Source: Bacteroidales bacterium (GTDB lineage Bacteria > Bacteroidota > Bacteroidia > Bacteroidales > P3). Taken from it: a DNA stretch of 64,000 nt. The DNA is taken from the NCBI GenBank assembly GCA_017616895.1, contig JAFZXE010000010.1, positions 1 to 64,000 of the forward strand, read 5' to 3'. Shown in pieces: positions 20,958 to 52,523 of the stretch. The position numbers were made by a program, and so were the translations under genes. Below the pieces are notes generated by a model, which worked only from the letters and a program-made list of their open reading frames with translations, did no database searches and was not told the DNA's origin. How positions within the stretch are numbered: position 1 is the first letter of the stretch; each line of letters opens with the position of its first letter.

Positions 20958-21116
20958 TTATAAGCCATATTTTTCGCGAAGTTCATCTTGTGCGACGAAT
21001 CGGCCAGCCTTATAATCCTCGTCCGACTCTTTTAATACAGCCGCAAACTCCTCTTTTGTATAAGTACAAGGTAGTTTAATACCACTAATCGTTGCTTCGA
21101 CATCAGCCATTTCCAT
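20958..21116 (-). CDS. Orphan antitoxin-like small protein
   Basis: A 52-residue protein starting MEMADVEATISGIKL. Its tail (TYTKEEFAAVLKESDEDYKA, then GRFVAQDELREKYGL) matches the C-terminal pattern of Bacteroidales type II antitoxins (K/E-rich helix, DYKAGR, DELR). No toxin gene follows: the next gene, 60 bp on, is the M16 protease. A longer frame up to 21230 encodes a hydrophobic stretch and is rejected because the upstream small gene overlaps there. It may be a remnant of a toxin-antitoxin locus or a protein acting on a distant toxin. Confidence 0.5.
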   Translation of the reverse strand: MEMADVEATISGIKLPCTYTKEEFAAVLKESDEDYKAGRFVAQDELREKYGL

Positions 21117-21258
21117 ATAATTTCTTCCTATAATAATAACGAAAACACTCATAAAAAATTGCATAATGGTCATAGCCGCACAAAGGCCAACTCTCAAAAA
21201 ACCTCTGATTATCAAACACAAGAATCTCATCCAATAATTTCAAATCATGCTTTTCCAT
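21103..21258 (-). CDS. Small unknown protein overlapping the antitoxin-like gene
   Basis: A 51-residue frame (MEKHDLKLLDEILVFDNQRF...) with many aromatic residues and a C-terminal YYYRKKLYGNG. Its end overlaps the start of the antitoxin-like gene by 14 bp in another frame. A three-unit 14-bp repeat abuts its ATG. I do not recognise a family. It could be the first gene of a two-gene module or the 5' part of one protein broken by a frameshift before MADVEATIS. Confidence 0.35.
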   Translation of the reverse strand: MEKHDLKLLDEILVFDNQRFFESWPLCGYDHYAIFYECFRYYYRKKLYGNG

Positions 21259-21290
21259 TACGGAAATTCCGTTACAGAAATTCCGTAATC
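21257..21290 (-). promoter_or_regulatory. Repeated operator-like sequence at the start of the antitoxin-like locus
   Basis: On the minus strand TTACGGAATTTC, TAACGGAATTTC and TAATGGAAAAGC follow each other with a 14-bp period, the last containing the start codon; GGAATTTCC is also partly palindromic. Such repeats next to a toxin-antitoxin-like gene often bind the antitoxin. Confidence 0.4.
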
Positions 21291-21311
21291 TAAAGTAAGC
21301 CGCATCAAAAA

Positions 21312-21342
21312 AAAAGAAGTGCCGGATTCGGAAATCCGGCAC
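21312..21342 (-). terminator. Terminator hairpin on the minus strand (copy 2 of the repeated hairpin)
   Basis: The same 24-bp stem-loop as after the toxin gene at 11799-11822 is here followed on the minus strand by CTTCTTTTTTTTT. No minus-strand gene ends here, so it may be carried along with the antitoxin-like locus. Confidence 0.65.
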
Positions 21343-21390
21343 AACGAGAAAATAATAACAGCAATATTCACCAATACAACACAAATTTAG

Positions 21391-21398
21391 TATCTTTG
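21391..21398 (+). promoter_or_regulatory. -7 box of the second structured leader
   Basis: TATCTTTG, giving a predicted start near 21405 and a leader of about 200 nt before the ATG at 21609. Confidence 0.65.
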
Positions 21399-21417
21399 CA
21401 ATCGGTTTCAAAGGAAA

Positions 21418-21590
21418 CCACGAAGCGTTATGCTCGTCTCTTGCTGGAAGGAACGTGAGAAATTCTATAGTACTGCAAGGACAAGAGTAACGGTTCACGC
21501 TCAAGCGTGGGCTGTTTTGCATCTTCTAAGTACAAGGTAATTCTCACGACCTCTTCCAGACGAAGTGGCATTCAGCGCCACGCTTCGTTT
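21418..21590 (+). ncRNA. Structured RNA leader or small RNA, type shared with 7071-7206
   Basis: An outer stem pairs ACGAAGCGT (21420-21428) with ACGCTTCGT (21580-21588). A long stem pairs CTGGAAG-ACGTGAGAA (21444-21462) with TTCTCACG-CTTCCAG (21541-21559), with GTACTGCAA/TTTTGCA and AGTAC pairs and a CACGCTCAAGCGTG hairpin inside. An alternative 3' hairpin (CGAAGTGGC with GCCACGCTTCG, 21561-21587) would compete with the outer stem and is followed by TTTGTT, so a switch between two folds is possible. Order of stems and the ACCTC internal loop match the leader at 7.1 kb. Function is unknown. Confidence 0.5.
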
Positions 21591-21608
21591 GTTAATTACC
21601 ACAGTACC

Positions 21609-22373
21609 ATGAAAAAATACTTCTTAATTCTCGTTATCAGCATAGTGTCGTCTATGTCGTCATTTGCGCAAGACACCATCATCTTACGTAATGGAGACGA
21701 AGTTGTAGCAAAGGTTACCGAAGTAAGCGACAATGAACTAAGATATTTACTTTGGAACAACCTCGATGGCCCGACCTACATAAAAAGGGTTTCTGATATT
21801 TATTCTGTGACATATAAAAGTGGGCATAAAGACTTTTTTGGGAATATAGACATCAGCAATAATGAAGAATTAGAGAAAGAAGGCGAACGTGTAAATGATG
21901 AGTTTTTTAAAATGTATTCGGAAAATGGGGCGATGAAAATGAGTGGAGGAATACTAAAAAAAGACTATTTGCAACAAATACTTTTAACGGACGAGTATGA
22001 GACATATACATCAGCACGCAAACAATATTGCATCGGGAAAGGATTTGTACTCTCAGGGGTTATGGTAAGCTCTGTTGGAGCTCTGTTACTTATAGGGGAA
22101 TCTGCTGTAGAATCGAATTATACCCCTTCTGAAAAAAAGGCACTTAATGCAGTTTCAATATCTGCAATAGTCGTTGGCTCTATTCTAGTGAACGTTGGAG
22201 TTCCTTTATGGGCAGTGGGGTCTGGTCGATTGCATTGGGTTGCAAGGAATTATAATAACCGTATGTCTGGTAATACTGTTTCATTGTCGGTAGAACCAAC
22301 GCTATTCCAATGTCCCAAAGAACTCGGAAATCAATCGACAGCTTATGGATTAGGTCTTACCTTGAATTTTTAA
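21609..22373 (+). CDS. Secreted/membrane hypothetical protein
   Basis: This 254-residue protein has a signal peptide (about 1-18, ending SSFAQ), a short beta-rich domain (DTIILRNGDEVVAKVTEVS, then LRYLLWNNLDGPTYIKRVSD) of a kind often seen in Bacteroidales envelope proteins, and two hydrophobic helices at about 145-165 and 175-200. The start at 21609 is chosen because it begins the signal peptide; an upstream frame from 21507 would run through the structured leader. Family and function are not recognised. The gene is the only one behind the second structured leader and ends in a hairpin overlapping its stop. Confidence 0.75.
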   Translation: MKKYFLILVISIVSSMSSFAQDTIILRNGDEVVAKVTEVSDNELRYLLWNNLDGPTYIKRVSDIYSVTYKSGHKDFFGNIDISNNEELEKEGERVNDEFFKMYSENGAMKMSGGILKKDYLQQILLTDEYETYTSARKQYCIGKGFVLSGVMVSSVGALLLIGESAVESNYTPSEKKALNAVSISAIVVGSILVNVGVPLWAVGSGRLHWVARNYNNRMSGNTVSLSVEPTLFQCPKELGNQSTAYGLGLTLNF

Positions 22374-22384
22374 CAAGGTTTTTA
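22359..22384 (+). terminator. Terminator overlapping the stop codon
   Basis: ACCTTG pairs with CAAGGT around AATTTTTAA, followed by TTTTT. The stem begins inside the last codons of the gene. Confidence 0.7.
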
Positions 22385-22612
22385 ATAACCTTTCCGCCGC
22401 TATCTATCTTGTGTCCCAAAACGCCATATCCAAAATCCTTATTGACTATTGACTAATGACTGATTTAACATCCAACAACCAAATTTGACCTATTTCTTCA
22501 AAAATTCTGACATATTTCTTTCCCAAGAATACAATATCATACCTTCCCCCTCGTTCCTTATTATATCTTTGATATAATACCCCCAACGATTTTATTCAAA
22601 TAGAGTCCTCTC

Positions 22613-22792
22613 CTAATTCTAAGGTAATTCTAGGGTAACTCTAGGATAATTCTAGGGTAATTCTAGGTCAACCCCGACTCAACTCCGACTTAACTCTGAC
22701 TTAACTCCCAAGAAACTCCGCATTAACTCCCAACTAACTCCGCATTAACTCCGCACCAACTCCCAACCAACTCCCAATCAACTCCCAACAAG
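22613..22792 (+). repeat. Degenerate tandem repeat array, 10-12 bp period
   Basis: The left part has five TTCTAGGGTAA-type units like those at 6755-6811; the right part passes into about eleven units of AACTCCGACTT, AACTCCGCATT and AACTCCCAACC. The whole 600-bp stretch from 22385 to 22988 holds no protein gene that I can support. Confidence 0.85.
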
Positions 22793-22988
22793 CCAACCTC
22801 GACATCCCCCCATCCTCAAATCAGCAATCAATCAATCTAGTGCTTCTAGTTTTTCTAGGGCATCTATCCAACCGCAACCAACTCCATACTTAAACCCCAA
22901 CCCAATCACCAAAATTAACATTTATAAAGATTTCCTGAAAAATAAAAGCCACATCGTGCCGTTTATTATTGGTATTAATGTGCATTAT

Positions 22989-24002
22989 ATGCAAAACAAA
23001 GTTCTGATAATCTATACTGGCGGCACTATCGGTATGGTGCAGGGCAAGGACGGCTCGCTTCACCCCTTCGCTCTCGAGGGCATCTATCAAGCTGTGCCTC
23101 AGCTGGAAATGTGCGACTACAAGATTGACTCGTGTCAGCTCGACAACATCATCGACTCGTCGAACATGACGCCCAAAGTGTGGGTGGATATAGCCGAGAT
23201 AATCGAACGCGAGTACGCCAACTACGACGGATTCCTGGTGCTTCACGGCACCGACACGATGGCCTACACCGCCTCGGCTCTGAGCTTCATGCTCGAAAAC
23301 CTGGGCAAGCCTGTGGTGCTGACGGGAAGCCAGCTGCCGCTCGGCATGCTGCGCAGCGACGGCCGTGAGAACATCATCAGCGCCCTCGAAATTGTCGCAG
23401 GGAAAGAGGTGATGATTCCTGAGGTGTGCGTCTTCTTCGAAAACCGCCTGTATCGCGGCAACCGCAGCACGAAGGTCAGCGCCGAGAACTTCGACGCCTT
23501 CAAGTCATACAACTACCCCTCGCTGGCCAAGGTGGGAATCACGATGACCTATAAAAACCACCTCATCATGCCGCAACCGGAGGGAGCCCTGAAGGTGTGG
23601 AAGCGGTTTGACGAGCACATCGCGGTGCTGAAGCTGTTCCCCGGAATCACCAAAGAGCTGGTTGACAGCATACTTCATACACCAGGACTCAAAGGAGCCA
23701 TAATCGAGGCCTACGGCTCGGGCAACGCCCTCACCGAAGAGTGGTTCATCAACTCGCTGCAGGACGCCATCCATCGCGGCATCGTGCTCATGGATGTAAC
23801 CCAGTGCAAAGCCGGCTCGGTGAAGCTACGCCAATACGCGGCCAGCTGCGATATGGAGCGCATCGGCGTCATCAGCGGTCACGACATCACCATCGAAGCC
23901 GCCGTCACCAAGATGATGCACGTGCTCGGCAACTACGGCAATGACGCCGAAAGAGTCAGAAGAATGCTCGAAACCCCGCTGCGCGGAGAGATGGAAATGT
24001 AA
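22989..24002 (+). CDS. ansA: L-asparaginase, type I
   Basis: The enzyme (337 aa) hydrolyses asparagine to aspartate and ammonia. Both catalytic threonine motifs are present: IYTGGTIGM with T13 and LHGTDTMAYTAS with T88-D89, followed by VLTGSQLPLGMLRSDGREN and the lysine-containing loop. No signal peptide is seen, so it is the cytoplasmic type I form. ATG at 22989 was chosen; a GTG at 22956 would add 11 residues (PFIIGINVHY) that do not resemble the family. It is followed by porT after 12 bp, with which it may share a transcript. Confidence 0.92.
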   Translation: MQNKVLIIYTGGTIGMVQGKDGSLHPFALEGIYQAVPQLEMCDYKIDSCQLDNIIDSSNMTPKVWVDIAEIIEREYANYDGFLVLHGTDTMAYTASALSFMLENLGKPVVLTGSQLPLGMLRSDGRENIISALEIVAGKEVMIPEVCVFFENRLYRGNRSTKVSAENFDAFKSYNYPSLAKVGITMTYKNHLIMPQPEGALKVWKRFDEHIAVLKLFPGITKELVDSILHTPGLKGAIIEAYGSGNALTEEWFINSLQDAIHRGIVLMDVTQCKAGSVKLRQYAASCDMERIGVISGHDITIEAAVTKMMHVLGNYGNDAERVRRMLETPLRGEMEM

Positions 24003-42230: not shown

Positions 42231-43147
42231 TCAGCGTTAAGCGCTGTCTCAAGCTCTGCCAGCTTCTTCATGTATTGCTCATATTCCACCGAGTCGGTGT
42301 GCAGCGGACGGTGCTGCTTCATGCGGTTCAGTTTCTGGTACTTCGAGCCGCGTTCTATCGTCTCCTGGCTCATATAGGTCTCCTGGAAGCGTTGCCACAC
42401 TATCTCTTCGGCCAACGGCGACGGATGAGTCATATCGTCGGCGTAGAAGCGGTAGTCGCGCAGCTCGTCGAGCACTATCTCGTATGCCGGGAAATACTCC
42501 GCCAGCCCTTCGTTGCAGAGCTGCTCCACCGCCAGCAGCAAGGTCGCCTTGCTCAGCTGGTTGCCGTGAGCCCCGTCGGCCAGATGGCGTATGGGGCTTA
42601 CGGTGAATATCACCCTGTGGCCCTCGTTCTTGAAGCGTTCCAACAACGGTTCCCACACGGTCACGATACCTTCGACGTTAAGCATCGAACGCTCAAACAG
42701 CGTCGCCGGCAGCTTGTGGCAGTTGCTCACCACCTGGTTGTTGTGTTTGAACACGAAGGCGGTGCCGAAGGTGAAGACCATCACCGACGGCTGCTGCATG
42801 AGAGAGTGCACCTTGTGGAACGAGTCGAGACAGTCGGCCATCAGCACGTTGCGGTCGTTGTTTGAGAAACGTCCGTGATGGAGCCACGAATGCCACAATC
42901 CGTTGTGGAACACCACGTCGTCCGAAGCCAGCGGCATCGGGTCGATACTGCGTCGCAGACATTGCTCTATCGACATCGGGTTGTAGAGCGTCCCGAAGGG
43001 ATTGGACATCACATCAAACCCACACTCTCCCATCCGTTCGCCTATGGCGTCGCTGAAGCAGCTGCCCATAAGCAACAGACGGCTCTCGTGGTCGATTTTC
43101 TGCGAGCTTGCCGCAATCTGTACCGGGGTTTGTAGCGCAAAGGTCAT
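42227..43147 (-). CDS. GSCFA-domain protein
   Basis: A 306-residue protein with the name-giving motif LLLMGSCFSDAIG at about 24-36, followed by NPFGTLYNP, GLWHSWLHHG and THPSPLAEEIVWQRF near 240. The GSCFA family is related to SGNH hydrolases and is typical of Bacteroidota; the serine of GSCFS would be the nucleophile and the late DxxH (DMTHPS) the acid pair. Substrate is unknown. ATG at 43147 overlaps the dnaE stop (TGATG); a GTG one codon earlier is less likely. Confidence 0.9.
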   Translation of the reverse strand: MTFALQTPVQIAASSQKIDHESRLLLMGSCFSDAIGERMGECGFDVMSNPFGTLYNPMSIEQCLRRSIDPMPLASDDVVFHNGLWHSWLHHGRFSNNDRNVLMADCLDSFHKVHSLMQQPSVMVFTFGTAFVFKHNNQVVSNCHKLPATLFERSMLNVEGIVTVWEPLLERFKNEGHRVIFTVSPIRHLADGAHGNQLSKATLLLAVEQLCNEGLAEYFPAYEIVLDELRDYRFYADDMTHPSPLAEEIVWQRFQETYMSQETIERGSKYQKLNRMKQHRPLHTDSVEYEQYMKKLAELETALNAD

Positions 43148-46100
43148 CACTGGTTTATTTTAACGTTGTATATACATTTCACGTCGCCTATGGCTTTCAG
43201 GAACGCCCTGATATCCACCTTATGTCCCCTCGGCATCATCGTAAGCGACATATCGTTGTGCGTCACGAACACCTTGAGCGGAATCGAGCCCTTGCACGAG
43301 TTGAGCGTCTTCGACATGAAGCCGCAGAACTCTTTGTCGATAAACCGCAGCGGCACCGCGATGCTGAGCCCTCTCGCATAACGCGACATCACGTCGCCCA
43401 GCAGCATCACGTCGGTTATCTCCAACTTCGGAGCCGACTCGGTGACTGTTCCGTCGGGTTGCTTCCTCTTGAAGGTTTTCACCATAGCCGTGCAAAATAC
43501 GAAAAGCCCTTTCTCGCAGTATTGCTTCAAGCGCTGGTAGTCTTTACCCCACAGCATTATCTCGTAAGTGCCCGAGTAGTCCTCTATCACCATACGTCCG
43601 AAGGGGTTGCCGTTCTTCTGCGAGATGCCCGTCTTCACGTCCGCCACCATGCCACCGAACTTTATGGGCGACAGCTTTATCTTTTCATACTCCTTGAGGG
43701 CAGTCACCGGGGTGTTGACGAAGGTGGCCATCTCATATTTGAATTCGTCGAGCGGATGTGCGCTGAGGTAGAAGCCTATCACCTCTTTCTCGTAGCGGCA
43801 TTGCTCTATGGTGCTCCACGGCTCGCATTGCGGCGCGTCGGGATGGCTGTCCTCCTTTATCTCGTCCGAGACGTCGAATATCGAAATCTGAGCCGAGTTG
43901 GCGTTCTCCTGGTTTCTCACCGCCCAGCGCACCAGCTTCTCCAGATAGGTCGGACAGCTTTCGTTGTCCACCTCTTTGTAGAAATACTGCGCCCTGTGCA
44001 TCTCGCCCAACCCGTCGAAGGCGCCCGCCTTCACCAGCACCTCTATGTTCTTGCGGTTGATGGTGTGGAGGTCAACCCTCGCCAGGAAGTCGAAGATGTC
44101 GGTGTATGGACCGTTCTCCTCGCGCTCTTTTATTATCACCTCGGCGGCGGCTTCGCCCATGCCCGAGATAGCTTGCAAGCCGAAACGAATCTGCCCGTTG
44201 ACTTTCACCGCAAAATTCTTTTCCGACTCGTTCACCGACGGCAGCAGCACGTCCAACCCATGTTTGCGGCAGTCTTCGATAAGCTGCGTGGTGCGCGTGA
44301 TGTCGTCCTGACCGCTGGTCAGCACCGCCGACATATACTCGGCCGGGTAGTTGGCTTTCAGATAGGCCGTCTGATAGGCCACCCACGAGTAGCAGGTGGC
44401 GTGCGACTTGTTGAACGCATACGAGGCGAATTTCTTCCAATCCTCCCAAATCTTGTGCAGCACCTCGTGCGGATGCCCGTTCTTCTCGCCTCCCTCGTAG
44501 AACAGCTTCTCCAGCTCGTTCATCTTGTCGATCTGCTTCTTTCCCATCGCCTTGCGGAGGGTGTCGCTCTGACCGCGCGTGAAGCCCGCCAGCTGACGGC
44601 TCAGTAGCATGACCTGCTCCTGATACACCGTGATACCGTAGGTGTCCTTCAGGTACTTCTCCATGCAAGGTATGTCGTATGTGATGGGCTTGCGGCCCTG
44701 CTTGCGGTCGATGAAGTCGGGTATATAATCCATAGGACCCGGACGGTAGAGGGCGTTCATAGCGATGAGGTCCTCAAACACGTGCGGTTCCAGCTCGCGC
44801 AGGTATTTCTGCATTCCCGGCGACTCAAACTGGAAGGTGCCCACCGTGTTGCCCTCGCAGAAGAGCTGATAGGTCTTCTCGTCGTCGATGGGTATGTGGT
44901 CGATGTCGATATCGACCCCGTGGCGGCGTTTGATGTTGGCGAGCGCGTCCTTGATGATGGTGAGGTTTTTCAACCCCAGGAAGTCCATCTTTATCAAACC
45001 CACGTTCTCCACCACGTGGCCGTCATACTGCGTCACCACCACGTCCTGCCCCGTGTCCTTGTCCTTGATGGTACACACCGGGGCGAAGTTCGTCAGGTCG
45101 TCGGCGCCTATGATCACGCCGCAGGCGTGTATGCCAATCTGGCGGTTCGTGTCCTCCAGCTCCTCGGCATATTCCAGCATCGGCTTCAGCGCGTTGTCCT
45201 CCGGTTTCTCCGCCGTGCCCTCCATGATGGCTTTCAGCTCGGGCACATACTTGTAGCAGTTGTGCAGGTTTATCTTCGGCGGTTTCTCCATCTTCTCGCC
45301 CTTCTCGTCCTTCATCCCTTCGGGGAACTTCTCGGGAATGTAGCTTTTCAGTCGCGCCACCGTGTCGAGCGGCACATCCTCCACCCTACCCACGTCGGCA
45401 ATCGACGACTTGGTGGCCATAGTGCCGTAGGTGATGATGTGCGCCACCTTCTCCTTGCCGTATTTCTCGGTTATCCAGTCGAGCACCTTGCCGCGACCCG
45501 CGTCGTCGAAATCGACGTCGATATCGGGCAGCGATATGCGGTCGGGGTTCAGGAAACGCTCAAACAGCAGGTCGTATTTCAGCGGATCGACGTCGGTAAT
45601 CTTCAGACAGTAGGCCACCACGCTTCCCGCCGCACTTCCACGTCCGGGACCCACGCTCACGCCCAGTTCCTCGCGCGCCGCACGTATGTAGTCGCTCACG
45701 ATGAGGAAATAACCCGGAAATCCCATCGTCTTGATGGTGTGCAGCTCAAACACTATGCGCTCTCTGATTTCCTCCGACAGAGCAGCCTTGATGTCCTCCT
45801 GCTCCGTCAGCTCCTCGTGGTCGGGCAGGTAGCGTTTCCGTGCGCCCTCCCACACCAGCTTCTCCAGGTAGTCGGCCTCGAACTTTATGCGGTACAGCTT
45901 CTCGTAGCCGCCCAGCTTCTTTATCTTCTTCTCCGCCGCTTCCTGATCCATCACCACCTCGTGGTTCTGGTTCTGCGTAAACTCGTCGAAGAGGTCTTTT
46001 TCCGTCAGCCGTTCGCGCCATTGCTGTTCGGTGCCGAAGCTCTCCGGTATGTCGAACATCGGCATGATGGGGTCGGAGTCGATGCTATAGGTCTCCACCT

Positions 46101-47088
46101 TGTCCGCCACCTCGCGAGTGTTCTCCAGCGCCTCGGGCAGGTCGTCGAAGATGGCAGCCATCTCGTCGGGACTTTTCAGCCACTCCTGCTTGGTGTAGCG
46201 CATACGGTTCGGGTCGCTCACCTTCTCCTGCGTGCTGATGCAGATGAGGTGGTCGTGCGCCTCGCCGTGCGCCTCCTCCACGAAGTGTACGTCGTTGGTG
46301 GCGACGATTTTTATGTCGTATTTCTTCGCCAGCTCTATCAGCACCTTGTTCACCCGCTGCTGTTTCTCGTAGGTGTCGGTGGCGGCGTTGGGTTTGTCGG
46401 TCTTGTGGCGCTGCAGCTCCAGGTAGTAGTCGTCGCCGAAGAGGTTTTTGAACCACACCACCGCCTTCTCCGCCCCTTCCAGGTCGCCCGCCAGAATCTT
46501 CTGCGGCACCTCGCCGCCGATGCATGCCGAGCAGCAGATGATGCCCTCGTGGTATTTCTCCAGCACGTTGTGGTCGATACGCGGACGCGAATACATGCCG
46601 TCGGTATATGCGATAGAGCTCAGCTTGCAGAGGTTCTGGTAGCCCTTCTTGTTTTTCGCCAGCAGGATGAGGTGCCAACCGCTGCTATCCACGATGCGTG
46701 GGCGACCCGTTTCGGGGTTTATCTCCGTCACGTTCTTGTCGTGGTCGTAGAGGGTGCGGCGAGCGCAGTAGGCCTCGATGCCGATGATAGGTTTGAACAG
46801 TTGGTCTTTGAGCATCTCCATCTGAGCTTCCGCCTCCTGTTTTTCTTCTGGTGACGCGCCGTCGTTCTGCAGGATGGCCTGCTGTTCTTTGATTTTGTCC
46901 TTCACCTTGCCGTTTTCCTTGTTCACGGTATCGACCAAATCCTTGATGCCAAACATGTTGCCGTGGTCGGTGAGCGCCATCGCGTACATACCGTTGGCCT
47001 TGCATTTCTTTATGAGGTCGGGTATTTTGGACATACCGTCCAAAATCGAGTAGTGCGAGTGAACATGTAAATGGGTGAAATACGGCAT
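43147..47088 (-). CDS. dnaE: DNA polymerase III alpha subunit
   Basis: The replicative DNA polymerase, 1313 residues. The N-terminal PHP domain begins FTHLHVHSHYSILDG and continues ALTDHGNMFGI; the polymerase catalytic aspartates lie in PDIDVDFDD near residue 520 after VGPGRGSAAGS; the helix-hairpin-helix and OB-fold parts follow, with a long insert near 620-640 (GMKDEKGEKMEKPPK). It is longer than E. coli DnaE, as is usual in Bacteroidales. It is coupled to the GSCFA gene downstream. A weak TATCTTTA box precedes it. Confidence 0.97.
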   Translation of the reverse strand: MPYFTHLHVHSHYSILDGMSKIPDLIKKCKANGMYAMALTDHGNMFGIKDLVDTVNKENGKVKDKIKEQQAILQNDGASPEEKQEAEAQMEMLKDQLFKPIIGIEAYCARRTLYDHDKNVTEINPETGRPRIVDSSGWHLILLAKNKKGYQNLCKLSSIAYTDGMYSRPRIDHNVLEKYHEGIICCSACIGGEVPQKILAGDLEGAEKAVVWFKNLFGDDYYLELQRHKTDKPNAATDTYEKQQRVNKVLIELAKKYDIKIVATNDVHFVEEAHGEAHDHLICISTQEKVSDPNRMRYTKQEWLKSPDEMAAIFDDLPEALENTREVADKVETYSIDSDPIMPMFDIPESFGTEQQWRERLTEKDLFDEFTQNQNHEVVMDQEAAEKKIKKLGGYEKLYRIKFEADYLEKLVWEGARKRYLPDHEELTEQEDIKAALSEEIRERIVFELHTIKTMGFPGYFLIVSDYIRAAREELGVSVGPGRGSAAGSVVAYCLKITDVDPLKYDLLFERFLNPDRISLPDIDVDFDDAGRGKVLDWITEKYGKEKVAHIITYGTMATKSSIADVGRVEDVPLDTVARLKSYIPEKFPEGMKDEKGEKMEKPPKINLHNCYKYVPELKAIMEGTAEKPEDNALKPMLEYAEELEDTNRQIGIHACGVIIGADDLTNFAPVCTIKDKDTGQDVVVTQYDGHVVENVGLIKMDFLGLKNLTIIKDALANIKRRHGVDIDIDHIPIDDEKTYQLFCEGNTVGTFQFESPGMQKYLRELEPHVFEDLIAMNALYRPGPMDYIPDFIDRKQGRKPITYDIPCMEKYLKDTYGITVYQEQVMLLSRQLAGFTRGQSDTLRKAMGKKQIDKMNELEKLFYEGGEKNGHPHEVLHKIWEDWKKFASYAFNKSHATCYSWVAYQTAYLKANYPAEYMSAVLTSGQDDITRTTQLIEDCRKHGLDVLLPSVNESEKNFAVKVNGQIRFGLQAISGMGEAAAEVIIKEREENGPYTDIFDFLARVDLHTINRKNIEVLVKAGAFDGLGEMHRAQYFYKEVDNESCPTYLEKLVRWAVRNQENANSAQISIFDVSDEIKEDSHPDAPQCEPWSTIEQCRYEKEVIGFYLSAHPLDEFKYEMATFVNTPVTALKEYEKIKLSPIKFGGMVADVKTGISQKNGNPFGRMVIEDYSGTYEIMLWGKDYQRLKQYCEKGLFVFCTAMVKTFKRKQPDGTVTESAPKLEITDVMLLGDVMSRYARGLSIAVPLRFIDKEFCGFMSKTLNSCKGSIPLKVFVTHNDMSLTMMPRGHKVDIRAFLKAIGDVKCIYNVKINQ

Positions 47089-47190: not shown

Positions 47191-47796
47191 TTAAATTTCT
47201 ATCACTTGCGTTGGCCGTTCTGCCATCAGGGAATAGTGGTCGTTGACCACGCTTCCGTTGACGAAGGCTATGTCTTTCCACACATTTGTCCCATAGGCAT
47301 TATGTACATGACCGAAGAGATGCAGCTTAGGTTTCAGTTCCGTCACTTTCTCGAGCAGCTTTGTACTTCCGAAATGACGCCCGGCGCTGTCGAGATCCAG
47401 AATGCCCATAGGTGGCTGGTGGGTTATCAGAACGTCAACGCCTTCGGGAATAAGATCGTAGTTTTCTACAACAGATAGCTTGCCGTTCTTCATGCCCATC
47501 TGCATCGGAGCACCGTAGAAGAGTTTGCCTTCGATGCTGACGCCGCTATCCGAGAGAAAGTGAACATTGGGCGGAAGTCCTTCGATATTTGCGTCCCACA
47601 TCGCAACATCATGATTTCCTGCGACGAAGATTTTATGCTTGTGAGGTTGGTCACAGAGCCAATCGAGAAAATCCAATGCCTCGTTGTCACTGCCCGCGAA
47701 GGAGAAGTCGCCGCTGTGTACCAGCACATCGCCGTCGGGCAAAGGGGCAAGTTCGCGGTGTTTGCCGTGAGTGTCAGATATGTGAATAATCTTCAT
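47191..47796 (-). CDS. Calcineurin-like metallophosphoesterase
   Basis: A 201-residue phosphoesterase with the full metal-binding set: ISDTHGK (D8, H10), VHSGDFSFAG, VAGNHDVAMWD, LITHQPPMG and LFGHVHNAYG. The family includes phosphodiesterases for nucleic acid ends, cyclic nucleotides or small phosphoesters. Its start overlaps the stop of the preceding HEAT/LRV-like gene by 4 bp (ATGA), so the two are likely made together. It stands at the downstream end of the lower-GC block with nuclease-like genes. Confidence 0.9.
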   Translation of the reverse strand: MKIIHISDTHGKHRELAPLPDGDVLVHSGDFSFAGSDNEALDFLDWLCDQPHKHKIFVAGNHDVAMWDANIEGLPPNVHFLSDSGVSIEGKLFYGAPMQMGMKNGKLSVVENYDLIPEGVDVLITHQPPMGILDLDSAGRHFGSTKLLEKVTELKPKLHLFGHVHNAYGTNVWKDIAFVNGSVVNDHYSLMAERPTQVIEI

Positions 47797-48986
47797 AGTT
47801 CGATATCAAACATGTTGTCAAGTTCGTTCTTTCTCATTTGTTCCACCGCATATTTTACGATTTCGAACTGCTGGCTTTTAGGAGCGTCGGCCAATTCAGG
47901 TTCCCAAGCGATAATCGCATCCAAGGCACCCGTTATCCACCACCTGTTTTGGTAAGCGTTGGCGGCTTTTCTCGGATTACGGTAGGCGACAAGGTCGCGC
48001 TCCAAGCGTTCTTTTTCCGGATCATCACCGCATCGGTAGATTTCGTCGATACGATCACGCCATTGCGCCATCCAGCAGTTGCTTTTTATCAGCCATCGCC
48101 GCTTTGTCTCGTCGGTGATTTTGTAGTAGTACAACATATCGCACACCCTTACACCACCCGACCAATAGGCGTTTCCTTCCTCATCGATTATCCAGTCGAA
48201 CAAAGAGTTTGCGTCATCCATCACATCGCTGTGATCAAGGAGCATTGCGAAAGCGCTGTCGAGGAGGTCTTCTCTGCATATTTCGTCCTCGTTGGCCGAG
48301 CGTTCCGCTATGGAGAACAAAGGATTCAACCCCACCTTGTCGGCATATTTGCGCAGCAAGAAGGCGCCTAAAGATTCAGGCGTGCCGCACGTTATCTGTC
48401 CTTGTTCCACTCCGAGTTGCTTCGCAACCATATCCTTTATCTCACGTCCGTTTATGTTATGCGAAGCCAGAATCAGAGTTCTCTCCAAGTTACACTTTTC
48501 CCGTTCCAGAGTCGCACAAACCAGTTCGGGACAGCAGGTTTTCTCAACCCAAATCCGCATGTTACCCCCATCGAGCGGCCAACCCTCGTCGAACAGACGT
48601 CTGAACGCACGATTGCGCTCGTCAGGAGACACAAGTCCCTCAATATGGACGTTATTCAACAACTCGAGCAACCCCTCATAATCCACCTCGAAGGTTGTGT
48701 ATCTATCATACACATCCTCCCAGCTCATCGACTCGCATTGCTTTGCGGCCCAACTGACGCGAGGGTCAGGGTCGTTGGACAGTTCATCCAATCTGCATTT
48801 CTGCCAAGCGACCTCCATCCGCACATCGGCGGAGGAGTCGGATGCAAGTCGGCTCAACCCGCATCGCATCCTCGCAGCAAACCAACGATGCCGCCAGTCG
48901 GGCGAGGATACCAGATCGGCCATCCAGCCAGCAGGCACGTCGAATGTGCGTTCATCCAAATATTCTCTATAATCCTGTTCTGTCAT
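47793..48986 (-). CDS. HEAT/LRV-repeat-like protein of unknown function
   Basis: A cytoplasmic protein of 397 residues. The first 90 residues contain two or three short helical repeats of the LRV/HEAT type (LASDSSADVRMEVAW, LSNDPDPRVSWAAKQ), which usually bind protein or nucleic acid. The rest is helical with many tryptophans and no known motif. Upstream lies the two-nuclease cassette (77-bp gap) and downstream the coupled metallophosphoesterase. It may be a partner of one of these. Function not recognised. Confidence 0.75.
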   Translation of the reverse strand: MTEQDYREYLDERTFDVPAGWMADLVSSPDWRHRWFAARMRCGLSRLASDSSADVRMEVAWQKCRLDELSNDPDPRVSWAAKQCESMSWEDVYDRYTTFEVDYEGLLELLNNVHIEGLVSPDERNRAFRRLFDEGWPLDGGNMRIWVEKTCCPELVCATLEREKCNLERTLILASHNINGREIKDMVAKQLGVEQGQITCGTPESLGAFLLRKYADKVGLNPLFSIAERSANEDEICREDLLDSAFAMLLDHSDVMDDANSLFDWIIDEEGNAYWSGGVRVCDMLYYYKITDETKRRWLIKSNCWMAQWRDRIDEIYRCGDDPEKERLERDLVAYRNPRKAANAYQNRWWITGALDAIIAWEPELADAPKSQQFEIVKYAVEQMRKNELDNMFDIEL

Positions 48987-49054: not shown

Positions 49055-49074
49055 GGTACAGAGTTATCTGTACC
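49055..49074 (-). other. Perfect hairpin overlapping the stop of the nuclease-like gene
   Basis: GGTACAGA and TCTGTACC form an 8-bp stem with a 4-nt loop across the stop codon. There is no T-run, so it may stabilise the mRNA end or be a weak terminator. Confidence 0.5.
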
Positions 49075-50050
49075 AATACCTTTTCTTGAGGTATTCTATC
49101 AGTTCTGGATGCAGATTGTTTTCTTCAAGCGGAGAGAGAAGGTCCTGCGGGTCGATGATTTTGAATTTTGATTTGTCTTTTAGCATCGGGACAAATTCGT
49201 TCTCAACCGCATTTCTCAACTCTGTGTTACCATTCGGAATCACGTTTATGTGGACGAAGTCGTCAGCATAGCCGTTTGCCACCAGCTGCTCGCACAAGAG
49301 AGCTTGGCGCATCAGCTCGTAGTTTGGTTCTATGAAATAGACGGAATGAGGGATGCCATTGGTTGGCGTTTTGAGTCTTTTCGAAGTTTCGATTAATTTA
49401 GAGTACCGATTAAGACGTTCACGTTTAGTCTTGTCCTCCCTGGTGTAATACTCGGTGTATTTCCACTCAATAGGAATGAGCCAGGTTTTACCAGCAAGCT
49501 CCGCCATAACCATAGCGTCAATTGAGGTACATAATGTTCCTCGTTTAGCCCCATCATCTATTTCGTGTAGCCACTCGTCGTTTTTGAATGCGAACTCGAA
49601 TGAGATATACGATTCAGGGTCGTTATCTATAAGTGACGGTAATACTTTGTCAAAAGACATTCCAGTCGCCCCATCGATTATCGCCTTGAGTGACTTTGGA
49701 TCTGTACGCAATTCAAATAAATGGTTGAGGCAATGAATCTGAGAAGACAGAAGATGACCTGTTGGAAAATACCCGTCTTCTTTTTGACGCCACCAAGAAA
49801 TCTTCTGCTTTTCAAAGTACTGCATGGACTTTTCACGAATGGCAGAGTATAGGTTGCATTTGCTATCCTCTGGTTTTAGAATAAATCTACAATTTGAAAT
49901 AGTTTCGGTTATTTCTCCATCTTTGCTTGTTTTATTCCAATGCCCACCATTTCTTGCACCGCCAAAGATACCTTCACATCCATTGTCTTTCTGCTGATAA
50001 TACAACTCAACCTGTTTTCGTTTTTCTATTTGTCTAAATTCGGTATCCAT
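49064..50050 (-). CDS. Putative PD-(D/E)XK restriction endonuclease (PGN_0703-like)
   Basis: A 328-residue protein that resembles the PGN_0703 family of putative restriction endonucleases. The family hallmark HLLSSQIHCLNHLF is at 99-112. A nuclease core is suggested by D178 in SIDAMVM and E195-W-K197 in LIPIEWKYTE, the D...ExK order. No methyltransferase is near, so it is not a classical modification-dependent pair. It lies 3 bp after the other nuclease-like gene in a four-gene operon opposite a WYL regulator. The target could be foreign or modified DNA, but this is inference from motifs remembered, not from a search. Confidence 0.6.
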   Translation of the reverse strand: MDTEFRQIEKRKQVELYYQQKDNGCEGIFGGARNGGHWNKTSKDGEITETISNCRFILKPEDSKCNLYSAIREKSMQYFEKQKISWWRQKEDGYFPTGHLLSSQIHCLNHLFELRTDPKSLKAIIDGATGMSFDKVLPSLIDNDPESYISFEFAFKNDEWLHEIDDGAKRGTLCTSIDAMVMAELAGKTWLIPIEWKYTEYYTREDKTKRERLNRYSKLIETSKRLKTPTNGIPHSVYFIEPNYELMRQALLCEQLVANGYADDFVHINVIPNGNTELRNAVENEFVPMLKDKSKFKIIDPQDLLSPLEENNLHPELIEYLKKRYWYR

Positions 50051-50053
50051 GTC

Positions 50054-50959
50054 TTACTTTTTAGGAAGTGTAATAATATTGTTTGCAAATAACCCATAGC
50101 CCATAAATGAAGATGTTATGAATTTGCATTCATTCATTTCATGTAGTTCGTTATTAAGGGCATCGCTATACACTTTATAGTTCGCTAATAAACATATAAA
50201 TTCGATGTTCTCATAATCCGGTTTTAGTTCAAAATTCGATGTCATTCCTTCTATTTTAGAATTAGCACGGACCAATCCCAATTCACACTTTTGCTTGAAT
50301 ATCTCAATCATATCATCGCAAAAGGCTTCGAGCTTACCCTCATTCTTTTTTTTCTCGATAAAAGTATTAAAATCCTTCTGATGTTTTCGCAGTCCCGAAC
50401 TGTTCTCGGATGTTCTAATTGAATTTATACCTTGCTTTACCTCAATTATTGCTAACGAGACATCATCCTTTCTCCTTGCAGCCCCAGTAGAGTCCCATCT
50501 AAGAGCGATTAAGTCGAATCGACCATCTTCTATTTTTCCACTTTCCTCATACTCCATATCCACAATGAAATAATCTGTGTCTTGAGAATTTGGAGAATAG
50601 TTGTTTTCCTTTACAACAAGTTGCTGGATTTCTTTCTCGCCCAGATGGTTTTTCTTCGCAGTACAGATGTGGTAATCTACCAAATGCTTTGCCTCGAGAA
50701 TATATGAATTAAAATTTTCAGGATTGACACTAAGTTTAGTGCCATCACTATAGTTAGAATCCAGCCCATCCCATTCATATTCAGTAGATTTTGTTTCTCT
50801 AACAGAAAGCAATGCTCCTCCACGATAGTAGATTGTAAAATAGTTTCCTCTGAACTCCATATCCAAAGTGTCATCGTTCTTTACATACTCCAACAAACGG
50901 TGGAGATGACTTTCTTTGTTTTTCAACTCATTAAAGAGTGATCTTGTTAATTGTCTCAT
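50054..50959 (-). CDS. Putative PD-(D/E)XK nuclease-like protein
   Basis: A 301-residue protein, AT-rich and unlike its neighbours in codon use. A probable PD-(D/E)XK core is D149 in GRFDLIALRW and E173-V-K175 in AIIEVKQG, with a preceding strand (YFIVDMEYEE). Around it are long charged helices. I do not recognise a named family. Together with the next gene (3-bp gap) it forms a pair of distinct nuclease-like proteins, which suggests a two-subunit effector. Alternatively it is a regulator with a degenerate nuclease fold. Confidence 0.6.
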   Translation of the reverse strand: MRQLTRSLFNELKNKESHLHRLLEYVKNDDTLDMEFRGNYFTIYYRGGALLSVRETKSTEYEWDGLDSNYSDGTKLSVNPENFNSYILEAKHLVDYHICTAKKNHLGEKEIQQLVVKENNYSPNSQDTDYFIVDMEYEESGKIEDGRFDLIALRWDSTGAARRKDDVSLAIIEVKQGINSIRTSENSSGLRKHQKDFNTFIEKKKNEGKLEAFCDDMIEIFKQKCELGLVRANSKIEGMTSNFELKPDYENIEFICLLANYKVYSDALNNELHEMNECKFITSSFMGYGLFANNIITLPKK

Positions 50960-50987
50960 AATACATGTATTTTGATGATTAATAATT

Positions 50988-51194
50988 TTATTTTGCCATA
51001 AAGAGGAGTATCAGCACTATGGCTGCTACTATCCACCAGATTAGGCTGATTTTGGTGGATTTCCCTTTTGCAGCTTTGCTTTGACGGTGTTCTTCTTTGC
51101 ATTTCTCCGAACAATAACGTCCGCCGAAGCTTATGTATCCGTCGGACACACCGGTTCCTTGAATCGGACGGCCACACCATTTGCATCTTTCCAT
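50988..51194 (-). CDS. Small zinc-ribbon protein with one membrane helix
   Basis: A 68-residue protein. The N-terminal half has a four-cysteine ribbon (CKWCGRP, then YCSEKCKEEH) and the C-terminal half a single hydrophobic helix (about 48-66, ISLIWWIVAAIVLILLFMAK). It would be an inner-membrane protein with a cytoplasmic metal-binding head. It begins 1 bp after the preceding small gene's stop and precedes the nuclease-like pair by 28 bp. Function unknown; similar modular proteins occur in many bacterial loci. Confidence 0.7.
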   Translation of the reverse strand: MERCKWCGRPIQGTGVSDGYISFGGRYCSEKCKEEHRQSKAAKGKSTKISLIWWIVAAIVLILLFMAK

Positions 51195-51195
51195 T

Positions 51196-51492
51196 TTATT
51201 GTATTATATAGATTTTCTTTTTGTTTTCTCTGATATATTCTTCCACTTTATGCCTTACACGTACTGACGCATCGTCCATTAATTTTTCGATACCGTACCC
51301 CAATTCGATGGCCTTTAAACGATCAGATACTTTACTGGAGTCGACCAGTTTATCATACGCTTTAATCGAACCGTACATGTGGTACCGGTTTCTTGGTTTC
51401 GATTCGTCAATCACAAGTGGTACACTACTGTCGCTAATCATTTTTGCAAATTCAATTCCGTCCATTTTGGTTTTTTCTTTTTTCGATTTCAT
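51196..51492 (-). CDS. Small unknown protein with a HEAT/LRV-like unit
   Basis: A 98-residue basic protein. A middle helix pair (SDRLKAIELGYGIEKLMDDA, then SVRVRHKVEEYIRENKKK) resembles one LRV/HEAT unit, the same motif style as the N-terminus of the protein at 47793-48986. First gene of the minus-strand cassette, 40 bp from the -7 box TATCTTTG. A start 9 codons later (MDGIEF) is equally possible. Function not recognised. Confidence 0.55.
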   Translation of the reverse strand: MKSKKEKTKMDGIEFAKMISDSSVPLVIDESKPRNRYHMYGSIKAYDKLVDSSKVSDRLKAIELGYGIEKLMDDASVRVRHKVEEYIRENKKKIYIIQ

Positions 51493-51531
51493 ATTCTTTA
51501 GTTTTTATTGTTATTCCCTTTGATTTTTTTG

Positions 51532-51590
51532 CAAAGATACGCTTGGGGTGTGTAAATTTATTTCATACCCAAGAAAAAATATTATTTTTG
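51532..51590. promoter_or_regulatory. Divergent promoters with a palindrome between them
   Basis: TATCTTTG on the minus strand (51539-51532) and TATTTTTG on the plus strand (51583-51590) flank the imperfect palindrome CTTGGGG...ACCCAAG (51542-51573). A regulator bound there would cover both promoters. The WYL protein encoded divergently is the obvious candidate. Confidence 0.6.
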
Positions 51591-51611
51591 CAGAGTAGAA
51601 ATCTCATTATC

Positions 51612-52523
51612 ATGAATATCCTTAACAAGTATATCTGGCTCATAGACACGCTTTCGCGTGCGGGATTGGCGGGACTCAGCTTTGATGAAATCAGCGACAA
51701 ATATACGAAATCTGACTTTATCTCTGGCGGGGGTAACTACAATATCCGCACTTTTCACAACCACCGGCGCGATATAAAGGAGATTTTCCATATCGACATC
51801 GAGTGCCACCTCGACACATATCGATACTATATCGCAGACAATCAGTCGATACGCAACACGACATCGGTCCGCAAATGGCTGCTTGAATCAATATCGCTCA
51901 ACAACCTGCTGGCGGAGAACGAGAAGATACGCGACCGCATAATACTCGAGGACGTCCCTTCGTCGGAGCCGAACCTCACACTATGCCTGCAAGCCATACA
52001 GGAAAACCGCAAAGTGAGCTTCCAATACACCCGTTTCCAGAAACGTGACGAACTGTATTACAAAGACTTTATGCCGGTATGCCTGAAGATGTACAAACGG
52101 CGGTGGTACCTCTACGGCGGGCATACGCTCGAAAGATGCAAGATCTACGCGCTTGACAGGATGTCGGACATGACGATACAAGCCGACACATTCGTGATTC
52201 CGGAGGATTACAACCCGTCGGAATATTTCGAAGGATTCTTTGGCGTTTATCTTGACGAGAGAGTTGAACCGCAAGTCATAGAACTCAAGGTTGACGCCGT
52301 CTCGGCCAAATACCTGCGCTCGCTGCCTTTGCATGTGAGCCAGGAGGAAGTCACGGCCACCGAGAAATACAGCATTTTCCGGCTGTATCTTCGTCCGACG
52401 CAGGATTTCATACACGAACTGCTGACCTACGACAACAAAATCGAAATCCTTAAACCAAAATCTCTAAGAGCTCAAATCAAATCGACTCTGCAGAATATGG
52501 CCTCGCTGTATGAGGAGAGTTGA
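51612..52523 (+). CDS. WYL-domain transcriptional regulator
   Basis: A 303-residue DNA-binding regulator. The N-terminal part (about 1-75) looks like a winged helix (AGLSFDEISDKYTKS, then NIRTFHNHRRDIKEIFHIDI); the WYL domain (about 120-240) holds QENRKVSFQYTRFQ and the RRWYLYG box at about 164-170; a WCX-like C-terminal part follows. WYL regulators sense nucleic-acid ligands and often repress phage-defence operons such as BREX or CBASS. The ATG at 51612 is chosen because upstream codons to 51444 lie across the promoter region. It is divergent from the nuclease-like cassette. Confidence 0.9.
   Translation: MNILNKYIWLIDTLSRAGLAGLSFDEISDKYTKSDFISGGGNYNIRTFHNHRRDIKEIFHIDIECHLDTYRYYIADNQSIRNTTSVRKWLLESISLNNLLAENEKIRDRIILEDVPSSEPNLTLCLQAIQENRKVSFQYTRFQKRDELYYKDFMPVCLKMYKRRWYLYGGHTLERCKIYALDRMSDMTIQADTFVIPEDYNPSEYFEGFFGVYLDERVEPQVIELKVDAVSAKYLRSLPLHVSQEEVTATEKYSIFRLYLRPTQDFIHELLTYDNKIEILKPKSLRAQIKSTLQNMASLYEES

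Follow-up and report, generated by a model that had tools for sequence, protein, structure and literature searches.

The window analyzed here, a stretch of 64,000 nucleotides (nt) from a Bacteroidales genome (assembly GCA_017616895.1, contig JAFZXE010000010.1, positions 1 to 64,000), contains a putative nuclease cassette in which six co-directed genes, heat98, zr68, nuc301, nuc328, heat397 and MPE, lie opposite a gene for a WYL regulator, as called from the open reading frames (ORFs) of the window (Table 1). Two of the encoded proteins, nuc301 and nuc328, are of the PD-(D/E)XK type; their genes lie side by side in the window and form fusions in related loci. The original prediction had described four of the co-directed genes with the WYL gene opposite, and all of these ORFs were found at the positions and on the strands that it gave. 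Its cassette boundary (49064..52523), however, was wrong, as heat397 and MPE continue the run. On the minus strand, a consensus scan listed no terminator-like site in the gap between nuc328 and heat397.

Table 1. Features of the cassette and its neighbor dnaE, in positions of the 64-kb window.
Feature	Position	Strand	Assignment	Remark
WYL	51612..52523	+	WYL-WCX transcriptional regulator (Pfam WYL + WCX)	faces away from the other genes
divergent intergenic region	51493..51611	.		two diverging TAnnTTTG boxes, weak inverted repeat between them
heat98	51196..51492	-	98-amino-acid small protein, no family assigned	first in transcription order
zr68	50988..51194	-	treble-clef protein	second in transcription order
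nuc301	50054..50959	-	PD-(D/E)XK-like partner nuclease	third in transcription order
nuc328	49064..50050	-	REase-ARP family nuclease	fourth in transcription order
heat397	47793..48986	-	cassette-specific protein	77-nt gap after nuc328
MPE	47191..47796	-	calcineurin-like phosphoesterase	4-nt overlap with heat397
dnaE	43147..47088	-	full-length DNA polymerase III alpha	102 nt beyond MPE; neighbor, not counted in the cassette

Judged by its sequence, nuc328 belongs to the PD-(D/E)XK superfamily and to the REase-ARP family, whose curated Pfam cut-off it passes (PF22558; 142.5 bits, cut-off 27, E = 2.6e-41). It also matches PDDEXK_13 (PF20796; 61.3 bits, cut-off 27, 1.3e-16). A D and an E-W-K block form its conserved motif, with D, E and K invariant in 35 aligned sequences, and the residues proposed for its active site, D178, E195 and K197, fall in this block. 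For nuc301, no family was found above the cut-off in Pfam, PADLOC and further family searches. Its AlphaFold model, however, is PD-(D/E)XK-like, with the alpha-beta core and the D...ExK active site expected of this fold, and has NucS/EndoMS as best fold neighbors. Seven residues of nuc301 are invariant in 23 aligned sequences (E108, D134, E136, R147, D149, E173 and K175), among them the previously suggested nuclease motif D149/E173/K175. The core fold of the model is common to NucS/EndoMS, FokI, Can2/Card1, HamA, N.BspD6I and NucC, but nuc301 has no sequence family in common with these nucleases and differs from them in the partner that is adjacent to or fused with many of its relatives. Sequence homology between nuc301 and nuc328 could not be shown. 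A search by sequence for a solved relative of either protein gave no convincing match; a PPR chain was hit by nuc301 at 0.00036, with no single stretch passing by itself. Literature searches found no paper under the names REase-ARP, PGN_0703 or PDC-S10 and no biochemistry for REase-ARP (PF22558).

A scan of genome contigs yielded 239 relatives of nuc328, and the counts given here refer to the best 80 of them, including the loci of G416 and G484, two genomes of the same genus as the window. A nuc301 homolog is fused to nuc328 in 10 of the 80 loci and adjacent to it in another 14 (24 in total). In L061 another piece of nuc328 comes after the fused ORF, so that this gene may be split. A second partner family, marked by a D...ELK motif, accounts for 16 more loci, eight with a fusion to nuc328 and eight with an adjacent gene. 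While nuc328 is a clear member of REase-ARP, what sets it apart from the family as such is a further PD-(D/E)XK-like protein, encoded next to it in the window (nuc301) and joined to it in relatives. The 40 paired and the 40 unpaired loci also differ in their surroundings. A WYL gene lies within 5 kb in 15 paired versus six unpaired loci, and a HAD-associated family, two scanned members of which carry HAD_SAK_2, in 23 versus none, although paired loci supplied the members for its profile and no fewer than five of the 23 are an N-terminal part without the HAD domain. For MPE the numbers are four and three.

In Prolixibacteraceae and relatives the pair is inserted between HsdM- and HsdS-type genes, as found by clustering for L085, L101, L108, L131 and L132 and by eye for L196; the placement was checked with Pfam in L101. 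In L085, L101, L108, L118, L131, L132 and L196 the pair follows an HsdM-type gene, with an HsdS-type gene next where the contig continues. An HsdR-type SWI2/SNF2 domain was detected in all six genomes tested. Accessory ORFs that were scanned, some of them from HsdM/HsdS loci, included SIR2-like and SLOG-type families (recorded for the scanned set as a whole). A methylase gene adjoins the nuclease pair in some other genomes. In the window, membership of a restriction-modification system found no support, with no methylase among the Pfam matches of the seven proteins encoded by the cassette.

The cassette lies upstream of dnaE in three genomes, the window's own, G416 and G484. Identities of the window proteins to those of G416 and G484 are 81 and 79% for the WYL regulator, 68 and 68% for nuc328, 83 and 85% for heat397, 87 and 85% for MPE and 88 and 88% for dnaE; zr68 is absent from G416 and 87% identical in G484. 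In G416 a distant nuc301 (38% identity) forms a single ORF with nuc328, while in G484 nuc301 is absent and a DUF6946 protein occupies its slot. As the WYL regulator, heat397 and MPE are 79–87% identical while the partner is exchanged, the nuclease partner is a variable slot within a stable frame. The more constant of the two nucleases is nuc328, whose partner is exchanged even at the same locus. Across these three genomes the ratio of nonsynonymous to synonymous substitution rates (dN/dS) is 0.13–0.27 for the WYL regulator, zr68, nuc328, heat397 and MPE, and the compared genes are under purifying selection.

The distribution of nuc301 is sporadic. Including the genome of the window, it occurs in eight of 393 genomes of the order and in eight of 190 of the family, where a 44-residue match with a stop in G566 was not borne out at the locus; in the phylum its profile matched four of 395 genomes, G165 and G920 being among the matches. 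For nuc328, nine of 190 family genomes (one with a 34-residue piece) and, with the profile, 33 of 374 order genomes gave matches. Carriage by phages was sought for nuc328 and none was found; for plasmids, nuc328 gave one distant match and nuc301 none. The original prediction was to be abandoned if its four genes were not kept together elsewhere. This is the case for the gene set as such, with heat98 in only one other of 190 genomes and zr68 in one of the two orthologous loci, but not for the nuclease pair, and the fold of nuc301 likewise held up. A conserved four-gene unit was therefore rejected.

The small protein heat98 had been described as HEAT-like. Three library searches assigned it no family and a further one gave chance-level matches only, which leaves this name without family support. 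Its one clear homolog in the family (E < 1e-20) is found in G471, a genome of the same genus, and there adjoins genes for a WYL regulator, a REase-ARP protein and MPE on a contig other than the one with dnaE. The protein zr68, previously taken for a zinc-ribbon membrane protein, is indeed a small zinc protein but is better read as a treble clef, with Pfam matches to VATC (5.4e-6, at the cut-off) and DUF2116 (7e-6, just below it); by eye, its C-terminus is hydrophobic. Three of 190 family genomes, the window's own included, encode heat397, always in this cassette. Inspection by eye indicated a repeat-like N-terminus and, at about residues 170–234, a UvrD-like stretch without Walker motifs. Aligned to the genome's own UvrD, this stretch scores 70, which none of 300 shuffles reaches (mean 32.9, standard deviation 4.8). 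Three libraries match it weakly, in each case below the cut-off if there is one (PF00580 at 0.0019), and a UvrD origin is for this reason probable from the sequence but not certain. Gabija was considered and rejected, as GajA gave no match and the partial GajB match to heat397 (0.0045) is better read as the UvrD-like stretch. The phosphoesterase MPE is related to MPPED2 (3rl4, 1.8e-31) and matches the PADLOC model PDC-S10 (2.9e-74), which we take to be a candidate family only; here it is one module of an operon. The earlier statement that the block holds no methyltransferase and no other known defence genes is thus borne out by the Pfam matches as far as methylases are concerned, but is not quite right in its second part because of PDC-S10. 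As a cassette gene dnaE was rejected, being the sole match to the DnaE query in G000 (an assembly 88% complete). The absence of the cassette from all 10 other dnaE loci examined in the genus is further evidence that dnaE is a mere neighbor.

The block had also been called AT-richer than its surroundings. Measured against a reference GC content of 0.516 (standard deviation 0.050), derived from the 37 window ORFs of at least 200 amino acids kept by a simple ORF caller, this is true of a core made up of nuc301 (0.354), heat98 (0.360) and nuc328 (0.414), but not of the WYL gene (0.485), MPE (0.502) and heat397 (0.513). A second AT-rich stretch of the window, at 21001–23000 (GC 0.38–0.39), holds a 254-amino-acid ORF at 21609–22373.

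Both domains of a WYL regulator are present above their Pfam cut-offs (WYL 42.2 bits, cut-off 21.8; WCX 37.2 bits, cut-off 23.9). The divergent promoters proposed on both sides of a palindrome were confirmed only in part. Boxes of the form TAnnTTTG, which we take to be a promoter motif, are present on each of the two strands, not only in the window but also in all three relatives inspected (L041, L042 and L039). A scan for sigma-70-type promoter-like sites, however, found nine where shuffles gave 10.4, and the inverted repeat between the boxes was equaled by 105 of 500 shuffles, so that it was rejected as evidence of an operator. CapW is a WYL-type regulator of defence. Operons of the BrxR/CapW type resemble the cassette in having a WYL gene beside defence-like genes, and the cassette differs from them in nucleases for which PADLOC has no model. 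BrxR itself is a proven defence repressor (PMC9122601).

It appears rather probable from these sequence data that the locus is a WYL-repressed, modular nuclease cassette directed against phages (or plasmids). The host is a gut bacterium, in which the operon is probably off until it is needed. The WYL protein would hold the operon off until infection yields its ligand or single-stranded DNA. The two nucleases, nuc328 and its partner, would then assemble as one cutting complex with recognition set by the partner, while the phosphoesterase (in many relatives a HAD phosphatase) may trim ends or clear the inducing nucleotide, and heat397, heat98 and zr68 may fit the complex to its trigger or site. 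The MPPED2-like and HAD_SAK relatives would point to nucleotides or RNA ends as substrates. As a methyltransferase is absent, either repression or a trigger specific to infection would have to account for self-sparing. Of the WYL-controlled two-nuclease system suggested originally, the pair as such (adjacent or fused in 24 + 16 of 80 loci) and the enrichment of WYL genes are supported; its four-gene set and its boundary are not. The exchange of partners and the company of restriction-modification genes are likewise seen in the loci, while defence, repression and complex formation are what we infer.

Several observations weigh against a defence cassette built around the pair. Half of the nuc328 loci (40 of 80) lack a recognized partner, even though L064 among them has a DUF6946 protein and L074 a second REase-ARP protein, and many contigs stop close to the nuc328 gene. 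The pairing counts are not independent because the 80 loci hold near-duplicates (e.g., L131/L132, L108/L118, L072/L073, L092/L095). In a wider sample of the order only three of 15 strong loci have a partner, and two of these (L192 and L200) are on contigs that the 80 loci had covered before. The second partner family was placed in PD-(D/E)XK by its motif only; a profile comparison with nuc301 gave a probability of 1.9%, though the motif columns align, and did not show homology between the two. The DUF6946 partner was identified by its family, and no PADLOC model recognizes nuc301 or nuc328.

The same genes could instead form an operon for repair or end-processing of DNA or RNA, in which NucS-like cutting is combined with a phosphoesterase and, in relatives, with an RNase J-like MBL nuclease. 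The fold neighbors of nuc301 would fit such a role, as would the 12 nuc301 loci without an adjacent nuc328 among those examined: all of them have an RNase J-like MBL gene at most three genes downstream, seven have MPE and five a nearby WYL gene. One further locus (L194) holds nuc328, MBL, MPE and two WYL genes in one run, with MBL in place of nuc301 as partner. HAD_SAK_2 is, moreover, named for RNA repair proteins, and bacterial Lhr-Core/MPE repair clusters likewise combine a phosphoesterase with nucleic-acid enzymes (PMC8301817). The cassette departs from those clusters in its WYL control, its variable nuclease and the lack of a helicase, no helicase model exceeding the Pfam cut-off in the seven proteins. 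A presence in eight of 393 order and eight of 190 family genomes, the exchange of nuclease partners, the WYL control and the insertion into restriction-modification operons would all be unusual for housekeeping functions, and we regard repair as an unlikely main role.

Among the published systems compared, the closest description is that of conflict systems centred on an ADP-ribosyl glycohydrolase, ARG (Iyer et al., 2022; PMC9503650). There, ARG shares an operon with a regulator of the WYL or Nudix type, a phosphatase that is either calcineurin-like or of the HAD type, and a fast-evolving restriction endonuclease (REase). The Pfam name REase-ARP probably refers to this work, and the window shares the regulator, the phosphatase and the REase, which would fit a reduced variant that once reversed viral ADP-ribosylation and of which regulator, phosphatase and REase are left. 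Such an origin seems quite improbable, with the defining ARG as well as Macro and NADAR absent from the Pfam matches of the seven window proteins (for ARG, the search did not extend to the loci of relatives). The cassette also differs in the central position of its nuclease pair.

In several related cassettes there are ORFs that resemble a housekeeping protein over a portion of its length only. DnaE-like ORFs were found in L011, L052, L061, L077, L080, L093, L100, L102, L104, L117, L124 (two) and L129 (two, one matching only at 0.0003). They retain the palm (approximately residues 434–556) and/or the fingers (approximately 700–925), while the PHP and C-terminal domains are mostly missing; the ORF of L117 retains much of the N-terminal part. 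Mini versions of DNA polymerase III alpha with palm and fingers are operon genes beside a divergent WYL gene at L142:8073-9710, L143:7842-9479 and L141:7843-9273. On visual inspection of the alignment, L011, L052, L080, L100, the first ORF of L124 and the two ORFs of L129 have lost the catalytic D-x-D. It is retained in L093, L117, the second ORF of L124 and L141, and half retained in L142 and L143. At L080:8031-10271 a REase-like N-terminal domain (Pfam REase-ARP, 1.7e-6) is fused to a DnaE-like domain, and by likeness to it L124:3051-4817 is a fusion of the same kind. In L074, sigma-70 region 2 (2.2e-13) and nuc328 form a single fused gene (L074:6557-7897), downstream of WYL and the second REase-ARP protein; in L129 this region is a stand-alone ORF (2.4e-11). 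Five GyrA-like ORFs (L124, L129, L052, L141 and L043) all match one stretch in the GyrA of the window's own genome, starting near residue 385, with alignment scores of 62–97 that were reached in none of 200 shuffles each; ParC shows nothing. A phmmer search with the L124 fragment had also listed ORFs of L093 and L117. The GyrA likeness of the N-terminus of the L093 DnaE-like ORF (4/200 shuffles), of the L117 ORF (85/200) and of a 121-amino-acid ORF in L044 (15/200) was unconvincing. Mimicry of five host proteins by heat98, zr68, nuc328, MPE and the WYL regulator was also rejected (z ≤ 2.8), while nuc301 scored z = 3.1 against UvrD.

With DnaE, UvrD, GyrA, ParC and RpoD as queries, a scan gave 19 partial matches among the 1175 ORFs at most 4.5 kb from a nuclease or MBL gene and none among the 429 ORFs farther off. 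This limit was chosen when the distance of the L093 fragment (4.1 kb) was already known. Without L141–L143, loci fetched for their DnaE and holding four of the matches, 15 remain (13 DnaE and two sigma-70). Several contigs were counted twice in this set; this raises the ORF numbers but not those of the matches. Among the GyrA-like ORFs, the one of L141 alone reached the threshold. ORFs truncated at a locus end were left out, and with them two DnaE-like ORFs of G501 (L144 and L145) with no nuclease gene near on the fetched stretches. In the reverse test, further DnaE-like matches were obtained in four of 59 genomes of the genus, at identities of 43–55%, far below those of the housekeeping protein. 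In three of these genomes (G474, G482 and G485) the ORF neighbors a divergent WYL gene and shares its run with two or more of nuc301, MBL and MPE, the MBL of G485 being a fragment; in the fourth genome (G501) a WYL gene is near, and nuc301, MBL and MPE are not on the stretch fetched. G501 has a second, longer DnaE-like gene (L144:1-2175), cut by the contig end and approximately 4 kb from another WYL gene. A literature search covering titles and abstract openings of part of its matches found no account of such host-protein fragments.

It would be conceivable that the fragments are functionless recombination debris caught at a variable locus, as some pieces are short (100 amino acids in L104) and the window cassette itself adjoins dnaE. 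Comparable fragment ORFs evolve under purifying selection, however, with dN/dS of 0.22 for the mini-DnaE of G482 and G485, 0.26 for the pair from L077 and L102 and 0.32–0.34 for GyrA-like pairs (the two sigma-70-like pieces were saturated and gave no value). The recurrence of the same GyrA stretch in five loci and the common end of five DnaE matches (L093, L100, L104, L117 and the second L124 ORF) at residues 922–925 also speak against debris, which we consider improbable.

The fragments may rather be decoys or tethers. As a tentative possibility, fragments of DnaE, GyrA, sigma-70 and UvrD, whether on their own or joined to a nuclease, would serve as bait: phage proteins directed against the genuine host proteins would bind them, and this binding would unleash the nuclease pair. 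This would parallel the integrated decoys of plant immune receptors. Alternatively, they could be tethers that bring the nuclease to the replisome, to gyrase or to RNA polymerase, or dominant-negative poisons that jam these machines to abort infection. The direct fusion of sigma-70 region 2 to nuc328, that of a REase-ARP-like to a DnaE-like domain in L080 and the match of the L142 mini-DnaE to both the palm (DNA_pol3_alpha) and the finger models of Pfam are in line with this, but the loss of D-x-D in seven of the 10 DnaE-like ORFs covering that site is not, and we hold tethers or poisons to be doubtful.

The analysis joins nuc301, so far an orphan nuclease, with REase-ARP, a predicted restriction endonuclease, as a recurrent and often fused pair which is often found near a WYL regulator. 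If the host-protein fragments are decoys, they would mark the host targets of Bacteroidales phages (DNA polymerase III alpha, gyrase A, sigma-70 and UvrD) and would show how a methyltransferase-free nuclease tells infection from self.

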